From: an uncultured Verrucomicrobiales bacterium
GTDB taxonomy: Bacteria > Verrucomicrobiota > Verrucomicrobiia > Limisphaerales > UBA1100
Length of the DNA: 35,637 nt
Direction: 5' to 3'
Assembly: GCA_913041895.1 (NCBI GenBank)
Contig: CAJWKQ010000009.1
Coordinates: 1-35,637, forward strand
A program made the position numbers and the translations under genes. How positions within the stretch are numbered: position 1 is the first letter of the stretch; each line of letters opens with the position of its first letter. Shown here in pieces: positions 4,962 through 16,290 of the stretch. The notes beneath the pieces are model-generated. The model was not told where the DNA came from. It made no database searches and saw only the letters and a program-made list of their open reading frames with translations.

Positions 4962-5846
4962 TTAGTTGCCCAACGCCATCTGGGCGGTGGTTATCTCCAA
5001 AAGTTCGTTAGTAATAGCGGCCTGACGCAATTTGTTGTACTCTAGGGTAAGGTCTTTAATCAGTTGGTTTGCGTTATCAGTAGCGTTTTTCATGGCTACC
5101 ATTCGAGCACTGTGCTCACTTGCCCTATTTTCCAATAAAATCTGCAGTACTTGGAAGTTGAGGTAGTGAGGCAACAATTCACCCAAAACCACAGCTGGAG
5201 AAGGCTCAAAAAGAAATTCCGTTGTGCCTCCAGGCAGATCCTCAGAGGTCTCTTCACCTTCAACCCCAGCCGATACGCCCTTAATTTCAGTTATCGGCAA
5301 CAAGGTCTGCACCTCCGGCTTTTGTGTAATGGTATTAATAAAATTAGTGAACGCAATATCCACATGGCCAACTGCCCCACTCTCAAAGAGTTCCACTGCA
5401 ACCTTGGTAATAGCTCTTGCTTCACTTATTGAAGGTGGATCTCCAAAAGAAAATTCAGCGGTCAAATCCCATCCCGCACGTGTAGCGTGCTGGGCACCTT
5501 TTCTACCGGCTGAAATTATTTGGGTGTTGGGCGTCACAAACTCGTCGGAAACTTTACGCAAAAGATTTGTATTTAGAGCGCCGCAAAGGCCTTTGTCGGT
5601 CGTGACCAAAATCAGTGCCCGTTTTTCACTTCCCTGGCTCTCCATATAAGGATGATCAAAGTCTCCAGCATGGGTCACAACTTCACCTAGGACTCTATTC
5701 ATCAGGTCGGCATAAGATCGCCCAGATATAGCCGACTGCTGGGCTTTCGCCATCTTGGCTTGGGCCACCTTTTCCATCGCCTTGGTGATTTGCGATGTAT
5801 TCTTGACGGACTTAATACGCCGCCTGATGTCTCTTGTGCTCGGCAT
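4962..5846 (-). CDS. atpG: ATP synthase gamma subunit
   Basis: Gamma rotor subunit of F1, 294 residues, a normal length. The N-terminal coiled-coil helix (STRDIRRRIKSVKNTSQITKAMEKVAQAKM) and the C-terminal helix (SEHSARMVAMKNATDNANQLIKDLTLEYNKLRQ...ITNELLEI) that form the rotor shaft are both strongly conserved. The middle holds the Rossmann-like part (ALILVTTDKGLCGALNTNL). A run of acidic residues and glycines around GVEGEETSEDLPGG looks like a variable loop. It starts 4 bases after the atpA stop and belongs to the same operon. Confidence 0.96.
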   Translation of the reverse strand: MPSTRDIRRRIKSVKNTSQITKAMEKVAQAKMAKAQQSAISGRSYADLMNRVLGEVVTHAGDFDHPYMESQGSEKRALILVTTDKGLCGALNTNLLRKVSDEFVTPNTQIISAGRKGAQHATRAGWDLTAEFSFGDPPSISEARAITKVAVELFESGAVGHVDIAFTNFINTITQKPEVQTLLPITEIKGVSAGVEGEETSEDLPGGTTEFLFEPSPAVVLGELLPHYLNFQVLQILLENRASEHSARMVAMKNATDNANQLIKDLTLEYNKLRQAAITNELLEITTAQMALGN

Positions 5847-5850
5847 TTAC

Positions 5851-7374
5851 CTAACTCTGTGACTTAAATTCATCCAATGCAGATTTGAGAGCAGATTCAA
5901 CCTCGTCAGTCACGGCACCTTCTGTCTCAATCGTCTTAACTAAATCTCCCTTACTGTCTTTCAGGAAGGTCGTCATATCGTTTTGGGTCTGTTTCAGAGC
6001 CTCTACATCCACATCATCGAAATATCCATTTTGCACAGCCCAGAGAACGGCCACTTGCATAGGGACTGCAACCGGCTGGAATTGTGGTTGTTTGAATACT
6101 TCAACAATCCGCTTTCCTCGCTCAAGCTTTGCCTTAGTAGCATCATCAAGATCACTGCCAAACTGCGCAAAGGCGGCCAACTCACGGAACTGAGCTAAAT
6201 CCAGTTTCACGGTACCGGCTACCTGCTTCATGGCCTTCACCTGAGCAGCGGAACCAACACGACTAACTGATAAGCCCACTGAAATTGCCGGGCGCACACC
6301 TTGGTAAAACAAGTCTGTCTCCAAGAAAATCTGACCATCAGTAATTGAAATAACATTGGTGGGAATATAAGCCGATACGTCACCAGCCTGCGTTTCAATA
6401 ATGGGCAAAGCGGTAAGCGAACCTCCGCCAGCTGCTTTACGCAAGCGAGCAGATCGCTCCAGAAGGCGGCTATGAAGATAAAATACATCACCAGGATAAG
6501 CTTCACGACCAGATGGACGCTTCAAAACCAGAGAAACCTGACGATAAGCTACGGCGTGCTTCGATAAATCATCATAAACAATAAGTGAATCCATATCATT
6601 ATCCATGAACCACTCACCCATGGCTGCGCCAGAAAAAGGAGCCAGATACTGATTAGTAGCAGAATCACTCGCTGTAGCCGCAACCACAATGGTATGCTCC
6701 ATAGCCCCTGCATCAGTCAGATCCTGAATAACCTTGGCGACGTTTGCGCGCTTCTGCCCGACAGCAACGTATATGCTGTAAAGGGGGCGGAAACCTTCGA
6801 CCCCTTCATTTTCTTTGTTGATGCGGGCATTATTAATGATCGTATCAACGGCCACAGCCGTCTTGCCAGTCTGGCGGTCCCCAATGATCAACTCTCGTTG
6901 CCCTCGGCCAATCGGAATCATTGCATCAACAGGCATAATCCCTGTCTGCATCGGCTGACTCACCGACTGCCGGTCAATAATCCCCGCAGCAATTTTTTCA
7001 ACCGGATAAGTCTCTTCATGTGCCACTTCTCCCTTATCGTCAATCGGTTGACCCAGAGAATCCACTACACGCCCCAAGAGCCCTTTACCCACCGGTACCG
7101 AAAGGAGTTCTCCAGTTGTCCGCACCTCAGTTCCCTCATTAATACCAGTATGATCACCAAGGATCACGGCGCCCACCTCAGTCTCCTCCAAATTCAGAGC
7201 CAATCCGCTCACTCCATTACCAAAGTCGAGACGCTCATTCATCATGGCACCGGTCAGGCCTTCAATCTTGGCCACACCATCACCAATCTCACGCACTATC
7301 CCCACGTTTTCACGTGCCACATCTGTCTTGGCTCCAGCTATTTGGGCTTCAATATCCTGTAATAGGTTACTCAT
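5851..7374 (-). CDS. atpA: ATP synthase alpha subunit
   Basis: Non-catalytic alpha subunit of F1, 507 residues. The Walker A loop GDRQTGKT is at about 165-172. The arginine finger that reaches into the catalytic site is in [15 protein letters not shown] (Arg at about 372). The N-terminal helix and beta-barrel ([17 protein letters not shown]) and the C-terminal helical bundle are complete. It lies 24 bases after the atpH stop. No anomaly was seen. The 222-residue antisense ORF listed at 6694-7362 is a shadow of this gene. Confidence 0.97.
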
Positions 7375-7398: not shown

Positions 7399-7791
7399 TT
7401 AAAATTTTTCCCCTAGCCGGGTTAAACGCGTCTTAACGCTACCATCAAACACATCATCCCCAATCTTCACACGCATACCACCTATCAGTTCAGCATTTTG
7501 GGTAAATTCAACAGCCACATCACTGCCTTTCATTCGGCCCAAGCTTTCCCTGACACTTTGTTTTTGTCCTTCAGTCAGATCAACCGCACTTTCTACACTC
7601 GCTGAACGACTGTTTACGTCCAGCTTCACCAACCGCTGCAACTCCTGTAGAGTTCCAAAATAGCCGCGTGGCTTCCTCTCGATAAGCAACGTCACGGCCT
7701 GCCTAGCTCGATCTTCGTCAAGCTGGCCATCGACCTGACAGCTCTTAAAAAGCTGCTTTGCATCACGACGAGATTGTTTACCACCTTTCAT
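7399..7791 (-). CDS. atpH: ATP synthase delta subunit, unusually short
   Basis: The operon position between atpF and atpA and the C-terminal signature GGMRVKIGDDVFDGSVKTRLTRL (family: GG-x-R-x-x-x-G-x-x-x-x-D-x-S) identify the delta subunit, which joins the b-subunit stalk to the top of F1. It has only 130 residues; the family is usually about 175-185. A possible first helix (SRRDAKQLFKSC) leads directly into a helix (DRARQAVTLLIERKPRGYFGTLQELQRL) resembling the end of the usual N-terminal bundle, so about 45-50 residues of the bundle appear to be missing. An in-frame TAG two codons before the ATG excludes a longer start. Reading frame and C-terminal domain are intact, so it is more likely a compact form than a pseudogene. 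Confidence 0.85.
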   Translation of the reverse strand: MKGGKQSRRDAKQLFKSCQVDGQLDEDRARQAVTLLIERKPRGYFGTLQELQRLVKLDVNSRSASVESAVDLTEGQKQSVRESLGRMKGSDVAVEFTQNAELIGGMRVKIGDDVFDGSVKTRLTRLGEKF

Positions 7792-7797
7792 AGTCTA

Positions 7798-8331
7798 CTA
7801 AGCAGCCAATTCTTTGTTGGTTTCATCAATCAAACGCTGCTGATCATCCTCACTAAGAACCTTCCCACTGACCTTTATTGTAGTATCAACTACAAGTCTG
7901 CCAATCTCGGCCTTAAGTTCGCTCATCATCTCTTGGCGTGAGGCTTCGGTTGCTTCCTGGGCCTTGGCAATAATATCCTCAGCTTTCTTCAGTGCTTTTT
8001 CAGCTTCTTCTCTTTCTAGTTTTGCAGCAGAAGCTTTTGCTGCGTCTATTATCTCCTGACGCTTCTCACCGGCTTCCTTAAGAATAGCGTCTTTTTGTGC
8101 CTGAGTATCTTCCAGCTCAGCTTTGATCTTGTCTGCGTTTTCGATGCCTTCGGCAATGCGTTGCTTGCGCTCTTCCAACACCTTAAGCACCGGTCCATAC
8201 GCAAACTTCTTAAGCGCAAACGCCAGTACGAGGAACGCTATGCATTGCGAAAGCAATAATTCCCACGTAACGCCAAATTGCTGCGGCAAGCCTTCTCCTT
8301 CTGCTGCGGCAAGTATGATTAGATTTTCCAT
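7798..8331 (-). CDS. atpF: ATP synthase b subunit
   Basis: Peripheral-stalk b subunit of Fo, 177 residues. A short N-terminal segment precedes one membrane helix (about 24-42, WELLLSQCIAFLVLAFALKKF), with the usual FGVTWELL stretch before it. The rest is a long, highly charged amphipathic helix rich in Glu, Lys and Ala (ERKQRIAEGIENADKIKAELEDTQAQKDAILKEAGEKRQEI...) that dimerises and carries delta at its end. It is the only b-type gene in the operon, so the stalk should be a homodimer unless a b' gene lies elsewhere. The stop is 6 bases before the atpH start; a strong hairpin separates it from atpE upstream. Confidence 0.94.
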   Translation of the reverse strand: MENLIILAAAEGEGLPQQFGVTWELLLSQCIAFLVLAFALKKFAYGPVLKVLEERKQRIAEGIENADKIKAELEDTQAQKDAILKEAGEKRQEIIDAAKASAAKLEREEAEKALKKAEDIIAKAQEATEASRQEMMSELKAEIGRLVVDTTIKVSGKVLSEDDQQRLIDETNKELAA

Positions 8332-8345
8332 GTTAAAAATTAGTT

Positions 8346-8371
8346 AATCGGGCAGGATTCCCTGCCCGATT
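8346..8371 (-). promoter_or_regulatory. Strong intercistronic hairpin between atpE and atpF
   Basis: A perfect 11-base-pair inverted repeat (AATCGGGCAGG / CCTGCCCGATT) with a 4-base loop fills the gap between the atpE stop and the atpF start. On the minus strand it is followed by AACTAATTTTTAAC, a loose T-rich stretch rather than a clean T-tract. It could act as a partial terminator or as a 3' stabiliser of an atpE-containing mRNA, either of which would help make more c subunit than b subunit. The hairpin is seen; the role is inferred. Confidence 0.7.
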
Positions 8372-8381
8372 GAGTTGATCT

Positions 8382-8579
8382 TTACGCGCCCATCTTCCCA
8401 AGGAAGATCGCAATAAACACAACACCTTCGGCCAACGCAGCGAAGATGATCGCCTGCGTCCGGATTTCACCGGCGGCTCCAGGGTTTCGGCCAGTGGCCT
8501 CAGCGGCTTTCATGCCCACTAATCCTACACCAATTGCAGAACCCAGGGCTGCCAGTCCAATATGAAGACTTCCAGTCAT
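8382..8579 (-). CDS. atpE: ATP synthase c subunit
   Basis: Proteolipid c subunit of the Fo rotor ring. At 65 residues it is a little shorter than most bacterial homologues. Helix 1 has the glycine-rich packing pattern (GLAALGSAIGVGLVG), the polar loop reads GRNPGA, and helix 2 holds the ion-carrying carboxylate as Glu at about 51 (FAALAEGVVFIAIFL). Glu is followed by Gly, not by Ser or Thr as in typical sodium-binding rings, so proton coupling is the simpler reading. An in-frame TGA four codons upstream fixes the ATG, and AAAGGT just upstream may serve as ribosome binding site. It lies about 70 bases after atpB. Confidence 0.95.
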   Translation of the reverse strand: MTGSLHIGLAALGSAIGVGLVGMKAAEATGRNPGAAGEIRTQAIIFAALAEGVVFIAIFLGKMGA

Positions 8580-8648: not shown

Positions 8649-9581
8649 TTAATGCACGTGTTCCTCTCCATGGTGCTCACACATCAGCGCTGTAAACACA
8701 GCTGCAAGCAGCGAAAACACCAGAGCTTGGACCAAGCCCACTAATAATTCTAAAAAATAAAATGGAAGAACCGCCAGCCAACCAAACCACGGACCTCCCA
8801 ACTTCATCACGGTCTCCAATATATTTTCCCCCGCAAATACATTTCCATAGAGACGGAACGTGAGCGCGACCGGCCGCACCCCAATGGAAACGATCTCGAT
8901 AATACCCACAAAAATAAACACCAAAACCAAAAACACTCCGAAGAATCCTGCTCCATGGCCTTTCACGTTGAAAATGTGACCAATAAACCCACCCGGCCCC
9001 AAGGCCTTAAGGCTCCAGTACAGCCACAGCACCATGAACATACCCGACATGGCGAGAGTCATGTTTACGTCCGCATTCACGCCACGCATCAGAGGTGCAT
9101 CCAAGTGATGGTTATGGAACAAACCGTAATCTTGATAAGTGTACCCAATCGTTCCAAGTCCAGGAATAAGCCCGAACCAATTGGCAAATAAAATAAAAAT
9201 GAATGTGGTGCCAAAAAACCAAAATGTACGCTTGACCATATCAGTGCCAATGATGCTTTCGAAAAATCCGTAGAGGCTTTCAACAAGCAGTTCCACGAAG
9301 TTTTGCAGGCCTGATGGAATAAGCTGTATGTTACTCGTGGCCATCTGAGCAATAATGATAATCCCCAAAGCCACAATGAAGGTCACAAACATCGAGTTTG
9401 TGATTTTCATTGGTCCAACCTCGAAAATCACCGGTGCAGCGGGAGGGAGCATGTGAGCCTCTTCATGATGATGGCTGTCTGCTTCAGATTTCTCTGAGCT
9501 GATAGAACCTCCCTCGTCGGCCAAAACGAAGGGACCGGTGATCATCAAAAACAGGGCAATTAAAATTTTGTGCAGTTGCAT
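8649..9581 (-). CDS. atpB: ATP synthase a subunit with cleavable signal peptide
   Basis: Membrane a subunit of Fo, which with the c ring forms the ion path. The core is clear: TFRLYGNVFAGEN carries the essential arginine (about residue 243), with hydrophobic helices before and after it. The N-terminus looks like a signal peptide (MQLHKILIALFLMITGPFVLA) followed by a periplasmic Ser/Glu/His-rich stretch containing SHHHEEAH. The C-terminus is also His-rich (CEHHGEEHVH). The track starts one codon earlier at TTG; ATG at 9581 is preferred. It is the first gene of the atp operon; no atpI is visible upstream. Upstream are a possible promoter and a CRP-like palindrome. Confidence 0.95.
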   Translation of the reverse strand: MQLHKILIALFLMITGPFVLADEGGSISSEKSEADSHHHEEAHMLPPAAPVIFEVGPMKITNSMFVTFIVALGIIIIAQMATSNIQLIPSGLQNFVELLVESLYGFFESIIGTDMVKRTFWFFGTTFIFILFANWFGLIPGLGTIGYTYQDYGLFHNHHLDAPLMRGVNADVNMTLAMSGMFMVLWLYWSLKALGPGGFIGHIFNVKGHGAGFFGVFLVLVFIFVGIIEIVSIGVRPVALTFRLYGNVFAGENILETVMKLGGPWFGWLAVLPFYFLELLVGLVQALVFSLLAAVFTALMCEHHGEEHVH

Positions 9582-9637
9582 CAAATGGCCAATTCGGGCC
9601 TCAAAAACAGGGTTAAATTACTGTCAGGCGGAGGCCC

Positions 9638-9740: not shown

Positions 9741-10580
9741 TCAGGAGATTAAGCGGACCAAGTCACGGGCCTTATCATCGGCTCCTTCGAGAATTGAATC
9801 TAGCACCTCTTCGTTGACCTGATGGCATGTCATAACCTGATCCTTGAAATGCTCTCCCCATCCCTCATTGGACTCAGCTGAAAGATCGCTCACGTAATAG
9901 ACCGGGTCAGGTCGAAGTTCACTAATGGGCTCATTCTGTGCGCTAATGGCAGCCCCGATATCCTCGGGCAAATCCCACTCATTACAAACCAAAGCTCCTA
10001 ATTCAGCGTGGTCCCATCCGAATGTTTCCTGTTCTATTTCATGTAGAGGCTTTTGACCTTCAATTGAGGTCTTATATACCTCCACATACTCATTCCCCTT
10101 ACTAGTGGCGATAATCGGCACACTCAAATCTTCCAAAAAACCGGAGGAAAAACAAAGCCCAGCACGTGAAGGATCCACCAAGTTTGCCAAGTCTCGAGCT
10201 ATAACTGCCCTAAGACTGGCATCAAGCCAAAAAGAGCTCAAATTCAGATCGCTAGGGACATCGGTAGGTGTAGCCACTTTTGCCCCTACCATCATAACGA
10301 CACGTTCCAATTCCGACTTACCTAACATGGTGACGGCATGGTCCAGGCCCTTGATTGGGATTTTGGGAGCATAGGCCAAAGAATTGACAGTTCGCATGAC
10401 CTTAGAGGTAAGGTCAGCATCCATACTCATCACTTCAGCAATATCTTTGGAGGTGGCTTTAGGATCACGTAAACGACTTAAGGTTTCAAAAATAGTTTTC
10501 CGAAACCGCGGGAGTTCATAGTCCCCCAAAATCTCATGGAGTCGGGCATGAGGATTTTTTTGTTTTAAGAAGGAGAACAT
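9741..10580 (-). CDS. HDOD domain protein
   Basis: This 279-residue cytoplasmic protein is dominated by an HDOD domain. The typical opening helices are present (LRDPKATSKDIAEVMSMDADLTSKVMRTVNSLAY), followed by the motif IKGLDHAVTMLGKSELERVVMM and the C-terminal part FGWDHAELGALVCNEWDLPEDIGAAI. Where an active HD hydrolase would have His-Asp the sequence reads SGFLEDLSVPII, so it is expected to be a non-catalytic signalling or scaffold domain, as in most HDOD proteins. HDOD proteins are often linked to two-component or cyclic-di-GMP signalling, but no partner domain is fused here. The ATG is 3 bases after the stop of the channel gene, so the two are likely co-transcribed. Confidence 0.8.
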   Translation of the reverse strand: MFSFLKQKNPHARLHEILGDYELPRFRKTIFETLSRLRDPKATSKDIAEVMSMDADLTSKVMRTVNSLAYAPKIPIKGLDHAVTMLGKSELERVVMMVGAKVATPTDVPSDLNLSSFWLDASLRAVIARDLANLVDPSRAGLCFSSGFLEDLSVPIIATSKGNEYVEVYKTSIEGQKPLHEIEQETFGWDHAELGALVCNEWDLPEDIGAAISAQNEPISELRPDPVYYVSDLSAESNEGWGEHFKDQVMTCHQVNEEVLDSILEGADDKARDLVRLIS

Positions 10581-10583
10581 AAC

Positions 10584-11645
10584 TCAGTTTCCACGTGAGG
10601 CGAATTTGGTGGCCAAAATGGATAAAAGTGCACCCAAGCCTAAGTAGCCAATGGTGATATGTGTGATGAGCACAACTTGTCCTGCAACCGTTAGTGGAGA
10701 CACATCTCCAAAACCGAGGGTCGTAAAGGTCACTACACTAAAATAAAGATATGGAATAAAACCACCTGGCAAACCCGAATCACCACCAATTCCTTTCAAA
10801 TGACTGTCTAAGCCCACAGGAGCCATCCATTGATCCATGGCCCAATAGACACAGGAAAAAAACAAAATGTTTAGAGCTAGGAATAGCCCCCAACGCGTCA
10901 TGCTCCGTCCGCATTTTGAAGTAACGTTCCAACCCCAATACAAAAATTGATGTAGTTTGTCCTGATGACGAAATTCATGCAGAAAATTCTCATCAATGAC
11001 ATGCCTACGAACCAAGTATGCCCCGGAAAAATCAATGTCACGAATATCAGTCCCTATCCAATTTGCTTTTATAAAATTGCGCATATTTCGTAACTGAGAT
11101 CGCTGTAAACTGGCGTTGTGAAAACTGACACCCTCAACATTTGTTTCACGCAAATCCGAATCTATCATCTCCGACTGCGAAAAATCGGATTGCATTAGGT
11201 CCGCTCCAAAAAAACGGCTCCGAGCTAGCTTAGTTGCCCGGAAATCAGATCGAATCACTTGTGTTTCCACAAAAGTAGCATCCTCAAGATTTGCATCAAA
11301 AAAATTAGCGGAGGTAATCACACTCATCCCGAATCCAGATTTTTTTGCTGAACAACCCGACAAGTTAGTCCCCTTAAACGTGGCACCAAGGAATTCACCA
11401 TCATCGAGCGTTGCCTTGTACAGGGTTGCCCCGTCAAAATTTGCACTCGGGCATTTAGCTTGAGATAAGTTACAACGACTCATCTCACTATCTGAAAAAT
11501 CAAACCCAGCCAAATCCAGACCTGATAAATCTTGGTCCGTTAGTTTTAAGCCTTTGAGAACCTTACAATCTGCCCCTAAAGGTTCGCCCAATTCTTGAGC
11601 TCTCCTGATTGCTTCTATGATCTCACTGGGCGATTCCTTTTCCAT
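10584..11645 (-). CDS. Pentapeptide-repeat protein fused to a two-TM potassium-channel-like domain
   Basis: The N-terminal half holds tandem pentapeptide repeats of the A(D/N)LxX type (LSGLDLAGFDFSDSEMSRCNLSQAKC, GANLEDA-like units, SRFFGADLMQSDFSQ), forming a right-handed beta-helix. The C-terminal part has a membrane helix (WGLFLALNILFFSCVYWAM), a pore loop FTTLGFGDVSP matching the K+-channel filter T-x-G-Y/F-G-D, and a second helix ending near the C-terminus: an Ion_trans_2 channel. The track begins at a TTG. I prefer the ATG at 11645 (MEKESPSEII), which has GGAGG 12 bases upstream, giving 353 residues. It is transcribed away from mntR across about 100 bases and is followed 3 bases later by the HDOD gene. 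Ion selectivity and the role of the repeats are inferred. Confidence 0.8.
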   Translation of the reverse strand: MEKESPSEIIEAIRRAQELGEPLGADCKVLKGLKLTDQDLSGLDLAGFDFSDSEMSRCNLSQAKCPSANFDGATLYKATLDDGEFLGATFKGTNLSGCSAKKSGFGMSVITSANFFDANLEDATFVETQVIRSDFRATKLARSRFFGADLMQSDFSQSEMIDSDLRETNVEGVSFHNASLQRSQLRNMRNFIKANWIGTDIRDIDFSGAYLVRRHVIDENFLHEFRHQDKLHQFLYWGWNVTSKCGRSMTRWGLFLALNILFFSCVYWAMDQWMAPVGLDSHLKGIGGDSGLPGGFIPYLYFSVVTFTTLGFGDVSPLTVAGQVVLITHITIGYLGLGALLSILATKFASRGN

Positions 11646-11745
11646 TGATTTAGGATGCCTCCTTCTCGCTAATCTAATTAAAAAATGCTTTTTCTCAAGC
11701 AAAATGCGCGTTGCCACAATCAATAGTAATACATAAAATAAAAGT

Positions 11746-15951: not shown

Positions 15952-16290
15952 ATGACTTTGTTTGAGAAAATTATCGCTCGCGAAATCCCTGCAGATATTA
16001 TTTATGAGGATGACCTTGTCATAGCCTTTAATGACATAAATCCAAAGGCTCCCACCCACGTCCTCATCATTCCGAAAAAACCTATCCCACGCATTGCCGA
16101 AGCCCAACCGGAGGATCATCAGGTTCTGGGGCATCTGCTATTAAAAGCTAGCGAAGTCGCGGGCGAACTTGGGTTGCACGAAAAGGGATTCCGTTTGGTC
16201 TTTAACAATGGCGCCGATGCCGGCGAAACGGTGCCGCATATGCATTTGCACATCTTGGGTGGTCGTGAGATGACCTGGCCCCCGGGCTAA
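15952..16290 (+). CDS. hinT: HIT-family purine nucleoside phosphoramidase (HinT-like)
   Basis: This 112-residue protein carries the histidine triad HMHLHILGG at the C-terminus and the usual N-terminal core TLFEKIIAREIPADIIYEDDLVIAFNDINPKAPTHVLIIPKKPI, a near-textbook HinT/PKCI sequence. The family hydrolyses adenosine 5'-phosphoramidates and acyl-adenylates in the cytoplasm. The ATG lies 1 base after the preceding stop, so it is the last gene of the nrdR operon. It converges on the cytochrome c gene with only 1 base between the two stop codons. Confidence 0.92.
   Translation: MTLFEKIIAREIPADIIYEDDLVIAFNDINPKAPTHVLIIPKKPIPRIAEAQPEDHQVLGHLLLKASEVAGELGLHEKGFRLVFNNGADAGETVPHMHLHILGGREMTWPPG

Follow-up and report, generated by a model that had tools for sequence, protein, structure and literature searches.

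Each ATP synthase complex needs about ten copies of the c subunit and two of the b subunit, and how one operon yields them in this ratio is an old question, which in E. coli is usually answered by translation. At the RNA level, the c gene of the Clostridium cellulolyticum F-ATPase is bordered by processing sites on both flanks and its transcript reaches 3-5 times the level of its neighbours; the same work relates transcript ratios to 3'-terminal stem-loops of highly transcribed genes (PMC4423207). Stem-loop energy has already served as a predictor of subunit ratios in operons of this sort, those of ATP synthases included (PMC8219983). In E. coli, malE-malF and 26 gene pairs with protective hairpins that lack a U-tract have been described (PMC5927463), and the intercistronic stem-loop of the puf operon (Chen et al. 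1988, a reference listed in PMC5927463) reportedly acts as an mRNA decay terminator.

The locus described here lies in an ATP synthase operon on the minus strand of the window, i.e., the whole stretch of 35,637 nt that was analysed, in which atpB-E-F-H-A-G were identified. L032 and L033, whose AtpE is 100% identical, are the closest named relatives and belong to the Verrucomicrobia. The atpE-atpF spacer, bounded on the minus strand by the atpE stop codon (8382-8384) and the atpF start (8331), is 50 nt long and holds a hairpin that is probably an intercistronic mRNA-stabilising element, a 3' decay barrier or "decay terminator" placed right after atpE and raising atpE over atpF mRNA. The features concerned are the following:

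8649 to 9584, minus strand: atpB, a subunit (PF00119), exact start uncertain; upstream in the same operon
8382 to 8579, minus strand: atpE, c subunit (PF00137); the upstream gene, putatively protected
8346 to 8371, minus strand: perfect 11-bp stem with a 4-nt loop, AAUCGGGCAGG GAAU CCUGCCCGAUU; the proposed 3' decay barrier
8332 to 8345, minus strand: A/U-rich linker AACUAAUUUUUAAC that connects the stem with the atpF start; a possible single-stranded cleavage region
8335 to 8339, minus strand: U5 run, 6 nt away from the stem and not touching it
7798 to 8331, minus strand: atpF, b subunit (PF00430); the downstream gene
7399 to 7791, minus strand: atpH
5851 to 7374, minus strand: atpA
4962 to 5846, minus strand: atpG

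The perfect 11-bp hairpin that an earlier note had seen between atpE and atpF was borne out, the arms (8346-8356 and 8361-8371) being complementary over all 11 nt around the 4-nt loop and the stem by itself folding at -19.7 kcal/mol. It sits on the transcribed strand, 10 nt past the atpE stop codon and 14 nt ahead of the atpF AUG. Its 91-nt minus-strand context folds at -26.6 kcal/mol, against -15.8 (sd 2.9) for shuffled sequences (z -3.7), none of 200 shuffles being equally stable. The claim that this is the strongest hairpin of the atp operon stands for compact perfect hairpins and for intergenic spacers, but fails on total energy, since four 50-nt coding windows reach -22.8 to -21.8 kcal/mol, against -20.9, by composite folds. 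The hairpin is a single site in the genome even when 3 mismatches are allowed, and a repetitive palindromic element was rejected on this count. A search with the Rfam covariance models gave no match over the hairpin and one chance-level match elsewhere. Of note, atpB contains an inverted repeat of its own (9374-9412, minus strand; 17-nt, 88% complementary, -16.3 kcal/mol).

The boundary concerned is the same as in C. cellulolyticum, with the same need for excess c; however, processing and transcript excess were measured there (PMC4423207), whereas the present case, in a different phylum, is drawn from sequence and conservation alone. With the E. coli protective hairpins, such as malE-malF, the locus shares a stable hairpin after a gene whose product is needed in excess, devoid of a terminator U-tract. 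It differs in being intergenic, while 17 of the 26 E. coli hairpins lie inside the downstream gene, and in being kept across a class, conservation of the E. coli cases having been checked in Salmonella and Enterobacter (PMC5927463). The puf stem-loop belongs to another operon; the likeness to it is that of an intercistronic stem-loop described as a decay terminator.

Conservation was surveyed in collected atpE loci of relatives, a hairpin being counted at -15 kcal/mol or stronger. In a first set of 82 distinct loci with both atpE and atpF, 83% have such a hairpin in the atpE-F spacer; at the same threshold, the neighbouring junctions give 0% (atpB-E), 1.4% (atpF-H) and 0% (atpH-A). The atpF-H and atpH-A spacers are short, but the atpB-E spacer is longer (median 78 nt) and yet has no hairpin of this strength. 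On visual inspection, three of the atpE-F exceptions (L059, L094, L100) can be seen to have a long hairpin, its loop larger or asymmetric, which escaped the simple finder; most of the others are Opitutales-type loci whose spacers measure 27-34 nt. A second set, broader and partly overlapping the first, used a fixed 90 nt past the atpE stop codon, which sidesteps the spacer-length artefacts that come from taking the first possible start codon. There, the threshold is passed by 30/30 loci of the same order (the window's own locus among them), by at least 33/45 in the rest of the class and by 3/24 in other classes of the phylum, with dinucleotide-shuffled controls passing in 37/600, 35/900 and 22/480 cases, respectively. 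Among the 12 in-class misses, L140, L141, L142, L145 and L155 form longer or branched stems on whole-spacer folding, and the hairpin is apparently absent from the class members L162, L163, L137, L167 and L168. Since some members of the class do without it, the hairpin is, judging from these genomes, dispensable for making ATP synthase. The E. coli K-12 atpE-atpF spacer, taken as an outgroup, forms at most a hairpin that is weak and imperfect (-14.0 kcal/mol for the whole spacer, z -2.0).

The stem is kept as a structure. Across 14 near relatives, 99.3% of alignment cells pair despite a changing stem sequence, and two-sided compensatory changes are found in 7/10 pairs, these counts being non-independent events as the aligned rows share descent. 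The covariation score is 0.418, while shuffles give 0.198 (0/500), and slid registers, used as a control, gave zero two-sided changes; outside the helix, rows 2-14 of the alignment are padded with a filler C ahead of the stop codon and with A or GA behind the start. For instance, L002 and L003, whose flanks are near-identical, have AAUCGGGCAGG/CCUGCCCGAUU and ACCCGGGUAGG/CCUGCCCGGGU, respectively, a difference of two double changes and one to G-U. The earlier note had proposed looking for the stem in related genomes, and it is indeed kept class-wide, with strong covariation and at this junction only among those tested; a function linked to the c/b boundary is accordingly a well-supported prediction.

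To place the hairpin among the terminators of its genome, 1.2 Mb was sampled, with genes called by a simple script and the hairpins after them catalogued. Of 59 post-gene hairpins that fold at -12 kcal/mol or below, 36 carry 5 or more U in an 8-nt window past the stem; in these 36, the U frequency is ~0.94 across the first six positions beyond the last G-C pair, a figure that describes terminator-like sites and is no independent test, as the sites were selected for U content. The atpE stem-loop is G+C-rich, as an intrinsic terminator would be, but its tail is AACUAAUUUUU, with no U-tract directly after the stem, and past the last G-C pair it has AUUAACUAAUUUUUA, with at most 3 U per 8-nt window. 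Only three hairpins in 299 short co-directional spacers are stronger, all three leading straight into a U-tract, and of those at -15 kcal/mol or stronger the atpE hairpin alone has fewer than 5 U. Clear terminators in three sampled relatives likewise have U touching the stem. At the atpE locus of 69 relatives, by comparison, the U frequency past the stem is 0.25-0.28 at first and reaches 0.61 at position 10; across 46 less redundant loci, the longest U-run begins a median of 6 nt past the stem, a set-back position that is non-random (0/2000 within-linker permutations). Because a stem-adjacent U-tract is lacking, the U-run is set back and terminators have U touching the stem, a standard terminator appears unlikely in this genome and was rejected on the position of the U-tract relative to the stem. 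A weak intrinsic terminator, at which polymerase would pause and a fraction would stop at the displaced U-run, with atpF onward transcribed less than atpB-E, is the main rival reading, albeit one that we consider rather unlikely. The strong G+C-rich stem, followed in relatives by a non-randomly placed U-run within ~10 nt, argues for it, most strongly in those relatives, 39% of the total, where an 8-nt window near the stem contains 5 or more U, and there is a precedent in cellulolytic Clostridia, where internal terminators with poor U-tracts fix subunit ratios of ABC importers (PMC9045158). These too are stem-loops between operon genes of unequal need; termination was measured in that case, with an efficiency that tracks poly(U) length, whereas here the stem is followed by AACUAA, as read from the DNA. 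The ~94% U at positions 1-6 of the genome's terminator-like hairpins, against at most 3/8 U here, and the stem-touching U of the three sampled relatives speak against weak termination. As a separate observation, another gene of the same genome is followed by a -33.8 kcal/mol hairpin that has no U-tract (L118, near 16029-16187); the co-directional spacer there is 158 nt long.

The hairpin could instead act on atpF translation, by limiting or positioning ribosomes at the atpF start or by looping out the spacer for re-initiation after atpE. The end of the stem 14 nt ahead of the AUG would suit such a role, as would the length of the spacer minus the hairpin, which averages 32 nt and is close to what relatives lacking the hairpin have, mostly 27-34 nt (p 0.28 for a difference). 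This similarity fits gain of a hairpin in, or its loss from, a like spacer and is by itself no proof of re-initiation. The stem-to-AUG distance is highly variable, up to ~60 nt in relatives, and the stem contains neither the start codon nor a Shine-Dalgarno sequence, so that translation control is improbable; its simplest form, sequestration of the start site, was rejected on geometry, the stem stopping 14 nt before the AUG with no Shine-Dalgarno sequence upstream of atpF. The missing Shine-Dalgarno sequence was not accepted as a peculiarity of atpF, since across the 1.2 Mb sample such matches ahead of called genes scarcely exceed the shuffled level, which suggests that the organism mostly starts translation without them. 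As for a chance hairpin or a functionless repeat, a looser promoter/terminator scan of the region, which accepts the atpE hairpin on both strands, finds terminator-like sites no commoner than in shuffles (8 vs 8.8, this hairpin being counted on both strands). Against this stand the covariation, the class-wide positional conservation, the contrast with the neighbouring junctions and the single genomic copy even at 3 mismatches, and the probability left to chance is close to negligible. There is a slight chance that some explanation outside those listed here applies.

A stabilising hairpin at the 3' end of atpE would work as follows. The atp message would be made as one RNA and cut downstream of the stem, either in the adjoining A/U-rich linker or beyond it, with RNase E/G as a plausible enzyme; 3'-5' exonucleases such as PNPase would then trim back to the hairpin and stall, and the protected, atpE-bearing RNA would outlast the segment from atpF onward, allowing more c subunit (about ten per complex) than b (two) to be made. 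Genes for RNase E/G and PNPase are present in this genome and in most of the relatives tested; RNase Y was looked for in this genome and was not found. In relatives, the stem keeps a steadier distance to the atpE stop codon (sd 5.0 nt) than to the atpF start (sd 8.6 nt), which is what a structure working for the upstream gene should show. In the linker, 33/46 loci have an RNase E-like RNWUU site, vs 18.8 (sd 2.8) expected, an excess that may partly reflect the U-run itself; the consensus is that of another organism, Salmonella, as PMC5222698 gives it. Like described stabilising hairpins, the structure is stable, lies between operon genes of unequal need and is kept in relatives; the lack of a terminator U-tract holds in this genome, whereas relatives differ among themselves, 39% having 5 or more U in 8 nt. 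The earlier note's phrase "partial terminator or RNA stabiliser" thus divides: its terminator half fares poorly for this genome, where the hairpin lacks the stem-adjacent U-tract of terminator-like ones, and its stabiliser half agrees with anatomy and precedent (PMC4423207, PMC5927463).

The type of element is already known, and the c-gene boundary also has a precedent; what is new, as far as literature searches reached, is its class-wide retention in Verrucomicrobiia, accompanied by strong covariation, in a survey that covered this phylum and E. coli K-12. The same searches found no literature on atp transcripts of Verrucomicrobia. Most of a class apparently retains an RNA structure at the c/b boundary through near-complete sequence turnover, and this retention points to an RNA-level solution resembling that of C. 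cellulolyticum, in another phylum. We tentatively go further and propose, as a possibility, an undescribed cis-acting RNA element across Verrucomicrobiia, composed of stem-loop, short linker and U-run, which would form the atpE 3' end by processing and set the c:b ratio, and which would be kept by structure, not by sequence, and lost in a few sub-lineages. Members of the class that carry the hairpin and those that lack it offer a natural comparison.

Other features of the operon and its surroundings are worth recording. AtpH (delta/OSCP; 7399-7791, minus strand) is just 130 aa long; its match to the Pfam OSCP profile starts at position 51, so that some of the N-terminal domain normally present seems to be absent; at the corresponding start, AtpH of relatives is 129-133 aa, a range in which the choice of start was steered by the window's protein. 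Upstream of the atp operon sits a pair of genes, at 10584-11723 and 9741-10580 (both minus strand), in which a predicted fusion of pentapeptide repeats and a two-helix ion channel domain (PF00805, PF07885) adjoins the gene of an HDOD protein.
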